From contig SWJS01000001.1 of the NCBI GenBank assembly GCA_007556525.1, forward strand, positions 216,346 to 280,345: a stretch of DNA of 64,000 nt. Direction: 5' to 3'. The notes under the pieces are model-generated. The model was not told the origin of the DNA, did not search any database, and saw nothing but the letters and a program-made list of their open reading frames with translations. Position 1 is the stretch's first letter. Each line of letters opens with the position of its first letter. Both the position numbers and the translations under genes were made by a program. Shown one piece after another: positions 25,268 through 29,101 of the stretch. Source of the DNA: Lysobacteraceae bacterium CU05-9 (GTDB taxonomy: Bacteria > Pseudomonadota > Gammaproteobacteria > Xanthomonadales > Xanthomonadaceae).

Positions 25268-25894
25268 TCAGGAGTTTTTCAGGACGATTTGGTAGGCAAC
25301 GACACCGGCTTCACGGCAACGGTCGATTGCTTTTTCGAGAATGTCAAAAAACTCTTTCAACAAAAACGTATCCGCCGCATCGAGATTGCCCGAGTAAATT
25401 TCGCGGTGCAGTTCCAGCAACAGGCGATCGGCTTCGGCTTCAATGACGCGCAGACGTTCGTTCAATTTGCTCATTTTTTCGATGCGCATGGAACGCAGTT
25501 CCTTCACCATTTCCACGACGACGCCGGCGGCTTGTTCGAGCATCAAACCGCGCGGTGCGAAGTCGATGTGCTCGAGACGGTGACGCGCGAGATCATAACG
25601 GTCCGCGAAACGTTCGACTTGCTTTGGAATTTTGTAAATTGCCGATGCGAGCGACTCGATGTCTTCGCGCTCGATCGGAGTGATGAAGTTGTCGACGAGT
25701 TCGTGATTGATTTTGTCAGAGACAACACGCTCACGTTGGCGCGCATGCTTGAACGGTTCGAGCGAGTAAGTTGCCGCGGGTTCCTTCAGCATCTCAACGA
25801 GGGCTTTCGTGCTTTCGTGCGCGGCATCTGCCGCTTCGTCCAACAGGTCAAAAAACAGGTTGCCGGAACCAAAGATCGTTTGCAGGGAAAACAT
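25268..25894 (-). CDS. DUF47 (PhoU-like) Pit accessory protein
   Basis: A 208-residue all-helical protein of the TIGR00153/DUF47 family, a distant PhoU homologue: FFDLLDEAADAAHESTKALV, then VVSDKINHELVDNFITPIER and EDIESLASAIYKIPKQVERF. Members are nearly always next to a Pit carrier and are thought to control it or metal-phosphate release. Here it precedes pit by 10 bp, so the two are one operon. No membrane segments or signal peptide. No Pho box was seen upstream. Confidence 0.9.
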   Translation of the reverse strand: MFSLQTIFGSGNLFFDLLDEAADAAHESTKALVEMLKEPAATYSLEPFKHARQRERVVSDKINHELVDNFITPIEREDIESLASAIYKIPKQVERFADRYDLARHRLEHIDFAPRGLMLEQAAGVVVEMVKELRSMRIEKMSKLNERLRVIEAEADRLLLELHREIYSGNLDAADTFLLKEFFDILEKAIDRCREAGVVAYQIVLKNS

Positions 25895-25925
25895 GGGAAA
25901 GCCCGTTATGCGAGAAATGTTTCAA

Positions 25926-26417
25926 TTATATGACCGTTTTCGCAATGTGAACATATTGTGAAGCCGAAATTTCTTGCGGGCGTACGGCGCCGTCAGTCGG
26001 GTTGCGGTCGAGAAGGACGAAAGTGACCGCGGGTACGGGTGGATCGAGGAGGACATTGTGCTCGTAGGCGGCTAGTCGGCGGGTGTCTTCGTCCCTGGTG
26101 GTCTCGACTTCGAGGCAGAGGGCTTCGTAGTGGGCGAGGTCGCTGATTTTTGCCTGGGTATTAAGTTGCGCGGCGAATTCCGCTGCAAGATCAACGAAAT
26201 GAGGGGACTGTTGAGTGCGGCTGGCGAGGAATTCGTGGATGGATTTTTGCCATTCCTCATCGCCCATCAATGCGTGAGTGCGCGACAGGTTGGTATGCAG
26301 GAGTCCGCTGATGCTGGCGTGGACCAGTTCGCGGTAGACCTCGGCGCGGCCGGGGAGTTCGCCGCCTTCGCGGATTGCGGTGGACCATTGTTCGATGGTG
26401 TCGCGGTAGTTGCTCAT
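25926..26417 (-). CDS. Short HvfC/BufC-like DUF2063 protein (RiPP partner protein)
   Basis: A 163-residue protein with the N-terminal DUF2063 helices (GRAEVYRELVHASISGLLHT, GDEEWQKSIHEFLASRTQQS, SDLAHYEALCLEV). Proteins of this family pair with DUF692 enzymes and present the precursor peptide to them. Typical members have about 250 residues with a second domain; this one stops soon after the inter-domain region (ISASQYVHIAKTVI), so the C-terminal domain is mostly missing or much reduced. It overlaps the DUF692 gene by ATGA. No frameshifted continuation was recognised downstream. Confidence 0.75.
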   Translation of the reverse strand: MSNYRDTIEQWSTAIREGGELPGRAEVYRELVHASISGLLHTNLSRTHALMGDEEWQKSIHEFLASRTQQSPHFVDLAAEFAAQLNTQAKISDLAHYEALCLEVETTRDEDTRRLAAYEHNVLLDPPVPAVTFVLLDRNPTDGAVRPQEISASQYVHIAKTVI

Positions 26418-27235
26418 AGCAGGGACCTCGCGTGTTCGATTTCAGCGAGGAGTTCATGAAGCGGCGGAAAATTGAAGTCACGCTCGAGCAGCGTTGGGCG
26501 GTGACCGATCGTGGTGTAAGCGTCTTTCAGCAGATCCCACACGTTGTTGATGACGGGCATGCCGTGGCTGTCGATTTTGAAATCATCCGCTTCGTCGTAG
26601 TGGCCAGCGACATGATAGCTGGCGACGCGCTCCGGCTTGATGGTGTGCATCAACTCACGCGGGTCTGTGCCGTGATTGATGTAGTTAACGTATAGGTTGT
26701 TGACGTCGAGCAGAAGATCGCAGTCCGCCGTTTCCAAAACCGCATTCACGAATTCCGGTTCGGTCAGTTGCGTTGCGGATGGTGCGTAGTAGGAGACGTT
26801 TTCGATGGCGATGCGTCGGCCGAGGGTGTCCTGGACTTGGCGGATACGTGCGGAAACGTGTTCAACGGCTTCCTCTGTAAAAGGTATCGGCAGCAACTCA
26901 TGCAACCGCGCCGTACCGTCCGCGCAATAGCTCAGATGCTCGCTGTACAACGCGACGTTATGCGTGTCGAGGAATGAGCGGATTTCGTGGAGATACGCGG
27001 TGTCGAATGGCGCGATGCCACCGAGATCCAACGACAAGCCGTGGCAGGTTAGGGGATAGCGCGACACCACGCGGTCGAACATCGCGGCGTAACGACCGCC
27101 GAGACGGATCCAGTTCTCCGGTGCGCATTCGACGAAATCCATGGCGCCTGAAGGTGCTGCAAGTGTTTCCTCAAGAATCGCGCGCCGCAAGCCCAGGCCA
27201 ACGGCGCGCTCGGAAATTACTTCTTGCCGCCGCAC
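26414..27235 (-). CDS. MNIO (DUF692) peptide-modifying iron enzyme, HvfB/BufB-like
   Basis: A 273-residue TIM-barrel enzyme of the multinuclear non-heme iron-dependent oxidative (MNIO) family, founded by MbnB. Putative iron ligands and active-site residues are all present: CHGLSLDLGG (His65), YSEHLSY (Glu99, His100), IENVSYY (Glu145, Asn146), LLDVNNLYVNYINHG (Asp177, Asn180), YHVAGHYDE (His208, His212), DSHG (Asp222, His224) and LLERDFN (Glu251, Asp253). Relatives oxidise Cys or Asp residues of precursor peptides. It overlaps both neighbours: a GTG start at 27235 lies 19 bp inside the precursor gene, and the stop overlaps the DUF2063 gene by ATGA. The candidate substrate is the upstream EGKCG protein. 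Confidence 0.9.
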   Translation of the reverse strand: MRRQEVISERAVGLGLRRAILEETLAAPSGAMDFVECAPENWIRLGGRYAAMFDRVVSRYPLTCHGLSLDLGGIAPFDTAYLHEIRSFLDTHNVALYSEHLSYCADGTARLHELLPIPFTEEAVEHVSARIRQVQDTLGRRIAIENVSYYAPSATQLTEPEFVNAVLETADCDLLLDVNNLYVNYINHGTDPRELMHTIKPERVASYHVAGHYDEADDFKIDSHGMPVINNVWDLLKDAYTTIGHRPTLLERDFNFPPLHELLAEIEHARSLL

Positions 27236-27570
27236 TTTCCTTCACCGCAAGTGTGTTCAGCGGCTTTGGCTTTCTTCGCAGCAGGTGCCTTGGCTGCAGC
27301 AGGTTTCGCGGCTGCGTCCTTCGCCTTCATCTGACCGCCGCACTTGCCTTCGCCACAAGCGTGTTCGGCAGCAGCTGGCTTGGCAGCGTGAGCCGCATCA
27401 AACTCTGCACGTGAGATGACGCCGTCCTTATTGGTGTCGATGTCGTCGAAGGTGTGGTGCGCCTTACCGCTGTCAGCGGCGTGATGATCTTGCGCGAATG
27501 CGACCGGTGCAGCGGCTGCGACAGCAGCGGCGAGAACGGCGCTTGAGATGCGGGTATGTACTTTGCTCAT
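27217..27570 (-). CDS. Bufferin/HvfA-like RiPP precursor with an EF-hand
   Basis: A 117-residue exported protein. A signal peptide (about 1-27, ending APVAFAQ) is followed by a canonical EF-hand loop at residues 45-56 (DTNKDGVISRAE) and by two copies of a cysteine motif, EHACGEGKCGG at 69-79 and EHTCGEGKCGG at 105-115, separated by an Ala/Lys/Pro-rich linker. EGKCG is the hallmark of HvfA/bufferin precursors, in which an MNIO enzyme converts Cys to a copper-binding heterocycle. The adjacent MNIO and DUF2063 genes support that reading. The EF-hand is an unusual addition. The gene starts 9 bp after the RNase T stop, so it may share that transcript. Confidence 0.82.
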   Translation of the reverse strand: MSKVHTRISSAVLAAAVAAAAPVAFAQDHHAADSGKAHHTFDDIDTNKDGVISRAEFDAAHAAKPAAAEHACGEGKCGGQMKAKDAAAKPAAAKAPAAKKAKAAEHTCGEGKCGGKK

Positions 27571-27579
27571 TAGTAAACC

Positions 27580-28299
27580 TCAGTTATTACCGTGTTGATT
27601 TGGATCGGTGTCCATTCCGGGAGTGATGTAGGGTGGGAGCTCATTGTTTCGGCCAACGCCTTTCGCAATGTGATTCAATGCATCGCAAAAAATCTGCGCC
27701 GTCTGCTCCGTATCGTAAATTGCACTGTGCGCGTTATGTCCATCCCATTCCATACCATTCGCAATCGCGATGCGTGCAAGGACAGTCTGCCCAAACAAGG
27801 CACCACCGAGTGTCACAGTGTCGAACACACTGAATGGATGAAACGGACTGCGTTTGTGTTGCGTGCGCTCGACCGCCGCGTTGACGAAGTTGAGGTCGAA
27901 CACTGCGTTATGCCCAACGAGGATCGCACGTTTGCACTCGTGCTTCTTCATGTAGATACGGATATGCGCAAAAACTTTATCCAGCGCTTCCTTCTCCGTC
28001 ACTGCACGACGAAGCGGGTGGTCGAGCTTGATCTTGGTCACTTCAAGGGACTTTGGATCAACGATCGTTCCCTCAGCTGGTTGGACGTGTGCGCTGACGG
28101 TCGTACCGGGAATCAGCATGCCGTCCTCATCAATGTCGATTGGCACGGCAGCGATTTCGAGGAGTGCGTTAGTTTTGCAATCGAAGCCGCCGGTTTCCAC
28201 GTCGATCACCACTGGCAGGAAACCACGGAATCTTTGCGCGAGCGAGAGCTGCGCGGAGGTGGATTCGGTGGTCGGCTGTGCGGTGGCGGCATTTTCCAT
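27580..28299 (-). CDS. rnt: Ribonuclease T
   Basis: A 239-residue DEDDh 3'-5' exoribonuclease that trims tRNA CCA ends and matures other stable RNAs. Motifs: [20 protein letters not shown] (Exo I), [16 protein letters not shown] (Exo II) and [17 protein letters not shown] (Exo III with His and Asp). The front end fits family members that begin with [14 protein letters not shown] short N-terminal extension ([12 protein letters not shown]) is low-complexity. Downstream, only 9 bp away, is the RiPP cassette. A bidirectional terminator lies upstream, before phoU ends. Confidence 0.95.
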
Positions 28300-28354
28300 T
28301 TGCCTACTTTAACACCTGCGTCATCGGTCACCATGAATCATGCCGCACAAAAAA

Positions 28355-28382
28355 AGACCACGCCCAAAGCGTGGTCTTTCCA
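28355..28382 (-). terminator. Terminator of the pst-phoU operon
   Basis: Minus strand: AGACCACG and CGTGGTCT form an 8-bp stem with loop CTTTGGG, followed by seven T residues. It lies 20 bp after phoU and may act in both directions. Confidence 0.9.
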
Positions 28383-28402
28383 TCACAACAAACTCGCGCA
28401 AT

Positions 28403-29101
28403 TTACTTCGTCGTGTTGGACTCGTCTGCCTTCTCGCGCGGTGGCAATGCTTCCTCGGACTTTTCGAGAAACCAGACGTTTTCGGCAATGTTCGTTGCGT
28501 GGTCGCCGACGCGTTCTAGGTTCTTCGCCATGAACTGCAAGTGCGTGCACGGCGTGATGTTGCGCGGATCTTCCATCATGTACGTCAGCAGATCGCGGAA
28601 CAGGGTCGTGTACGCGGCGTCGATGTTCTTGTCGTTGTCGCGGACGGCGATTGCCTTTTCGATATCGTTATCGCGGTACGAATCCAACGCATCGCGGAAC
28701 TGCAACACGACGAGCTTGCCGAGTGAACGCAACGACGAAACGTGCGGCACCGGCGTTGCGAAGTTCAGCGCCATCGAACGCTTCGCGAGGTTCGCCGCGT
28801 AGTCACCGATGCGTTCGATGTCTGCAGCGATGCGAATCGTTGCGAGGATCTCGCGCAGGTCACGCGCCATCGGACCACGCAATGCGAGTTGCATGACGTC
28901 GTGCGAGACGATCGCTTCAAGTTGGTCGATCGCTTCATCGTTGAGAATCAAACGTTCCGCAGCATTCTGGTCACGGCGTTCAACGACATCTAGAGCGGCT
29001 TCCAACTGTGCGAGTGCCATGTTGCCCATGCGCAGCGTTTCGGAGTGGAGTCGCTGATATTCGTTTTTGCTCGATTGCAAAATGTGATCATTCATTGCCA
29101 T
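28403..29101 (-). CDS. phoU: Phosphate signalling protein PhoU
   Basis: A 232-residue cytoplasmic protein of two three-helix bundles. The repeated metal-binding motifs are visible: RDLREILATIRIAADIERIG followed by DYAANLAKRS, and in the second half CTHLQFMAKNLERVGDHATN. PhoU links the Pst transporter to the PhoR-PhoB sensor and keeps the Pho regulon off in high phosphate. It is the last gene of pstC-pstA-pstB-phoU, 20 bp after pstB, with a strong terminator behind it. phoB and phoR are not in this window. Confidence 0.97.
   Translation of the reverse strand: MAMNDHILQSSKNEYQRLHSETLRMGNMALAQLEAALDVVERRDQNAAERLILNDEAIDQLEAIVSHDVMQLALRGPMARDLREILATIRIAADIERIGDYAANLAKRSMALNFATPVPHVSSLRSLGKLVVLQFRDALDSYRDNDIEKAIAVRDNDKNIDAAYTTLFRDLLTYMMEDPRNITPCTHLQFMAKNLERVGDHATNIAENVWFLEKSEEALPPREKADESNTTK

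Follow-up and report, generated by a model that had tools for sequence, protein, structure and literature searches.

Organization of the gene cluster

Three overlapping minus-strand open reading frames in the window (the whole 64,000-nucleotide stretch of DNA analyzed, from Lysobacteraceae bacterium CU05-9) encode a precursor protein, an MNIO enzyme, and a DUF2063 partner (Table 1). The MNIO gene begins with a GTG that falls within the final codons of the precursor gene, with the sequence GAAGGA just upstream, resulting in an overlap of 19 nt; the partner and MNIO genes overlap by 4 nt. The overlapping arrangement given in the first-pass annotation of this DNA is thus confirmed, and for each of the three genes codon usage favors the frame as annotated. 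Based on spacing, rnt and the cassette are probably co-transcribed. A search for sigma-70-type promoters, which is a weak test, gave no match in the interval 25850-28420. The gene that begins 31 nt past the truncated partner encodes a protein that we take to be DUF47-like, judging by its position; in relatives this place is occupied by rnt.

Table 1. Coordinates of the cassette genes and their immediate neighbors in the window.
Feature	Position	Strand	Basis or remark
Precursor (HvfA-like), 117 aa	27217..27570	(-)	Pfam, NCBIfam, and sequence reading
MNIO (DUF692, HvfB family), 273 aa, predicted by homology to form 5-thiooxazoles	26414..27235	(-)	Pfam and NCBIfam
PME-type-1 partner (DUF2063), 163 aa, truncated	25926..26417	(-)	Pfam, alignment, AlphaFold
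RNase T gene (rnt)	27580..28299	(-)	Stop 9 nt upstream of the precursor ATG
Protein without Pfam match, upstream of the PiT transporter gene	25268..25894	(-)	

The gene order in Lysobacteraceae relatives is pstB-phoU-[precursor-MNIO-PME1]-rnt-rlmB. In the window it is pstB-phoU-rnt-[precursor-MNIO-PME1]-DUF47-PiT-rlmB, with rnt shifted upstream of the cassette and DUF47-PiT now following the partner gene. The window cassette is a remodelled positional orthologue of the EF-pair cassettes at the Lysobacteraceae pstB-phoU/rnt/rlmB locus. It shares with the cassettes of that locus (L032-L109) its genomic position, the gene order inside the cassette, and the presence of EF-hand sequence in the precursor, but differs from them in that they have an EF-hand pair flanked by EGKCG blocks, an LxxGY motif, and a partner of about 250 aa. 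No second precursor, DUF2063 protein, or MNIO was found elsewhere in the genome, which is 99.97% complete. A genome of the same family (G003), whose RlmB is 80% identical to that of the window, lacks any MNIO, indicating that the cassette can be lost in Lysobacteraceae.

Motifs of the precursor

The precursor has a predicted signal peptide of approximately residues 1-26, with cleavage between AFA and Q as read from the sequence by the -3/-1 rule. A His-rich stretch (residues 29-39), the EF-hand, and two core blocks separated by a Lys/Ala linker make up the remainder, these blocks being EHACG-EGKCGG (Cys72 and Cys77) and EHTCG-EGKCGG (Cys108 and Cys113). The two EH-x-CGEGKCGG motifs of the first-pass annotation are both present, but each consists of two tandem pentamers, EH[A/T]CG-EGKCG, and there are therefore four candidate cysteines (a predicted change of -4 Da for each 5-thiooxazole, -16 Da in total) rather than two. 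All four lie in an E-x-x-C-G context. The precursor matched the NCBIfam model KCGExKCG_twice with 25.8 bits (cut-off 19.5) and gave no match to DUF2282 in Pfam. It is of the EGKCG type and not a bufferin (Buf1/Buf2) precursor of the DUF2282 or 6/12-Cys kind. Against the HvfA equivalog model NF050188, which covers the H. influenzae-like HvfA subfamily, it scored 25.7 bits, below the cut-off of 95.

Of the 81 other precursors, 79 have the motif LxxG[Y/F] directly following the signal peptide, for example AMQPLAQGYLL. This motif is absent from the window precursor. The other two precursors without it, both from Stenotrophomonas (L036 and L080), keep a PLA remnant with no GY and are accompanied by full-length partners.

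If cut after AFA, the mature precursor would begin Q-D-H, and these residues could bind Cu(II)/Ni(II) at the N-terminus. Further His residues follow, and relatives mostly lack His there; any effect would be small. The idea of an ATCUN site that binds Cu(II) at this position was set aside as a guess, as it requires that the cleavage site be exact and that the Gln not cyclize.

A single EF-hand in the precursor

The first-pass annotation had described an exported 117-residue precursor with an EF-hand loop, and this is borne out by the open reading frame listing and by Pfam, the EF-hand_5 model matching residues 40-57 with 26.5 bits (cut-off 25.9). In the loop DTNKDGVISRAE (residues 45-56) the canonical positions are all filled (D1, N3, D5, G6, I8, and E12), and the hand is similar to the first of those in relatives (DTDKDGKVSRAEFDAAH). 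We compared 82 distinct precursors gathered from orthologous loci in genomes, a sample skewed to relatives of the window enzyme (Lysobacteraceae, Pseudomonas, and others). An EF-hand pair lies between EGKCG blocks in 33 precursors and at the C-terminus in 15, another 33 have no EF-hand, and only the window's precursor has a single one; these are counts for this sample and not family-wide frequencies. Some relatives appeared to have a single EF-hand under a strict pattern, a reading that was rejected, as all of them have two by eye and under a relaxed pattern. EF-hands normally work in pairs. The window's EF-hand, with no second hand to pair with, probably has a low affinity for Ca2+ or else must dimerize to bind it. 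It may represent a relic, the first hand of an inherited pair.

The EF-hand precursor had been proposed as a new architecture, a proposal that is not upheld. Fusions of EGKCG and EF-hand sequences adjoining MNIO genes were published in 2025 (Antoine et al., PMC12452194), where the EF-hands are described as two, at the C-terminus, and a Ca2+ role is suggested for them. In our search, MNIO-adjoining precursors with both an EF-hand pair and EGKCG motifs proved common (48 of the 81 related precursors), and the first-pass annotation had itself named such commonness as grounds for giving up its idea. Exported peptides that combine an EF-hand with copper-binding motifs are already known and are common. 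In the precursors of Lysobacteraceae and relatives (L003-L109), the EF-hand pair is usually found between EGKCG blocks, an order absent from the text of PMC12452194.

The MNIO enzyme and its truncated partner

The MNIO matched the Pfam model MbnB_TglH_ChrH above cut-off (329 bits) and the NCBIfam HvfB-family maturase model NF003818 with 389.2 bits (cut-off 360). Its score against the BufB-type maturase model NF050167 was 274.6 bits, below the cut-off of 310. Because the enzyme passes the HvfB cut-off and misses that of BufB, and because the precursor contains a KCGExKCG domain, the cassette is by these models of the HvfA/oxazolin (captophorin) type and not a bufferin cassette proper. The earlier label of a bufferin-type MNIO copper-RiPP cassette is thus retained for an MNIO cassette with an EF-hand precursor but not for bufferin.

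Compared with 105 orthologues, the MNIO retains 72 of 77 near-invariant residues, including R17, R18, H65, H100, E145, D177, N180, H208, D222, H224, E251, and D253. Among those kept are the residues aligned with the essential Asn, Asp, and His of HvfB (PMC13419390), and R17/R18 and D253/F254 align with the Arg-Arg and Asp-Phe pairs of FonB (PMC12668002). These data agree with the earlier statement that the enzyme keeps its putative iron ligands, the ligand assignment being derived from alignment with 3BWW and not from a model.

The partner matched DUF2063 of Pfam above cut-off (51.5 bits) but reached 70.6 of the 142 bits required by the HvfC model. It is 163 residues long, compared to about 250 in relatives, with approximately 95 residues missing; it has lost its C-terminal portion and, internally, a segment around SPLAWPLAYRWPV. 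Its open frame from stop to stop is 171 codons, and in a search of 299 same-family genomes the others among the matches listed are at least 252. Apparently short partners in L026, L027, L056, and L079 were rejected as the product of start-codon choice, their open frames being about 260 aa or more. AlphaFold predicted for the window partner the DUF2063 helices and, of the RRE, no more than two strands and a single helix; the full partner of a relative was predicted to have four strands, three helices, and a final strand in its second domain. The window partner thus lacks the complete RRE domain beside DUF2063 that is the criterion for PME-type-1. A Foldseek search with the short partner gave as its three best matches the MNIO partners 3DEE, MbnC, and TglI, with weak E-values.

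We also examined how far each gene has diverged. Mean identity of the MNIO was 0.597 between the window and relatives and 0.716 among relatives, with 11 of 102 invariant columns broken. The corresponding identities were 0.736 and 0.741 for RlmB, 0.702 and 0.797 for PhoU, and 0.638 and 0.771 for RNase T. For the partner they were 0.264 and 0.588, and 30 of 51 invariant columns were broken. Judged from these alignments, the MNIO is about as constrained as its neighboring genes and the partner far less so. Relaxed selection, as might be read from the long terminal branch of the MNIO, was rejected because the neighboring genes show similar drops.

Comparison with characterized systems

The chimaera of Buf_EGKCG and EF-hand_5 (PMC12452194) resembles the window cassette in that a Sec-exported EGKCG precursor is fused to EF-hand_5, with MNIO and PME-type-1 genes adjoining. 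It has two C-terminal EF-hands, whereas the window's precursor has one, N-terminal to both cores, and the window's partner is truncated. With HvfABC of Haemophilus influenzae (PMC13419390) the cassette shares tandem EGKCG pentamers, an HvfB-family MNIO, a DUF2063 partner, and a Sec signal peptide. HvfA differs in having three blocks and no described EF-hand, HvfC has an RRE domain, and the hvf operon contains a DoxX gene, for which no counterpart was found in the window's genome. The absence of DoxX was dropped as a peculiarity of this cassette, the gap between partner and rnt being too small for DoxX in many relatives. In the Hvf system, HvfC is required for HvfB activity and for reaching the mixed-valent diiron state, and HvfA lacking its signal sequence is barely modified (PMC13419390).

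The fontiphorin cassette FonABC and other captophorins (PMC12668002) are alike in being minimal three-gene cassettes with a Lys-Cys type MNIO and the Arg-Arg and Asp-Phe pairs. In FonABC the partner is complete and seven cysteines are modified, as opposed to the window's four cysteines, with His-Ala or His-Thr preceding the first of each pair. In that work, EGKCG cysteines were converted to 5-thiooxazoles, Ala and Thr were tolerated at position 3 of the pentamer, and a double repeat was modified but a single repeat was not (PMC12668002). The short partners MbnC and PME-type-2 are likewise MNIO partners of less than approximately 250 aa, some with a truncated RRE; the window's partner differs from them in retaining the DUF2063 signature of PME-type-1, for which a narrow range of 250-260 aa is reported.

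Discussion

What is unusual about this cassette, and was missed in the first-pass annotation, is that one EF-hand of the pair, the leader motif, and most of the partner's RRE are all lost. We lean toward a minimised but working cassette of the HvfABC (oxazolin/captophorin) type in a member of the Lysobacteraceae with a small genome, and prefer this to decay. The precursor, MNIO, and partner would be made from coupled genes, probably in one transcript with rnt. The MNIO and the shortened partner would, by homology, turn the cysteines of EHACG-EGKCG and EHTCG-EGKCG into 5-thiooxazoles, and the modified peptide would be exported by Sec to the periplasm, where it may bind Cu(I)/Cu(II). Recognition would rest on the signal peptide and core, together with the DUF2063 domain, in place of the lost leader motif. 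Consistent with a working cassette are the HvfB-family, KCGExKCG, and DUF2063 matches above cut-off, the positional orthology, the likeness to the first EF-hand of relatives, and the constraint on the MNIO. Counting against it is the dependence of HvfB on HvfC (PMC13419390), such that a partner mostly lacking the RRE may fail to support turnover.

Decay is a possibility of some weight, although we think it is probably not what has happened here. By this account a rearrangement moved rnt, placed DUF47-PiT beside the partner, and clipped the 5' end of the precursor and the 3' end of the partner, leaving a product that is no longer correctly modified and genes that are in the course of being lost. 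Both losses do lie at the cassette's outer ends, the places at which gene order changed, and the broken invariant residues of the partner, the lack of an MNIO in G003, and the lack of a promoter match point the same way. Against decay, the three frames are open, overlapping, and host-like in codon usage, the active site of the MNIO is intact and its divergence is like that of its neighbors, and all four core cysteines remain in context; the partner, having also lost an internal stretch, still scores well above cut-off for DUF2063. It is far less probable that a normal cassette only looks abnormal through an error of assembly or sequencing. The assembly has 15 contigs, but the partner lost an in-frame internal stretch as well as its C-terminus, no missing piece is found in another frame before the next gene, and the near-complete genome holds no second DUF2063 or MNIO. 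We regard as improbable the model of the first-pass annotation, in which the EF-hand senses Ca2+ and thereby gates the folding or export of the modified peptide or its release of copper. The loop is canonical, a Ca2+ role was suggested in PMC12452194, and retention of EF-hand pairs in related precursors implies that they are of some use in the family. The window's EF-hand is single, however, where pairing is the norm, and the 33 of 81 related precursors with no EF-hand indicate that it is dispensable for core function.

Returning to the minimised cassette, the loss together of the post-signal motif and most of the RRE suggests that LxxG[Y/F] is the motif read by the RRE. This co-loss is one event in one genome, and it is not a strict rule, since the two Stenotrophomonas precursors lacking LxxG[Y/F] stand beside full-length partners, a point that also counts against the minimised cassette. 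So does the finding that no single pre-core position was essential in a shortened FonA (PMC12668002). A fuller version, which we advance tentatively and consider rather unlikely as a whole, is that the cassette works without leader-RRE recognition, with a DUF2063-only partner activating the enzyme and the pentamers, signal peptide, or EF-hand picking the substrate; the paired loss would then indicate that PME-type-1 RREs read LxxG[Y/F] in the leader.

The claim for the EF-hand adds little to the 2025 literature, save that in this sample the EF-hand pair is most often located between the EGKCG blocks. Two roles have been proposed for the partner, one in reading the leader and the other in converting the iron cofactor to the active form. 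The pared-down cassette represents a natural deletion experiment that separates them, and it points to a short candidate recognition motif common to nearly all of the related precursors.
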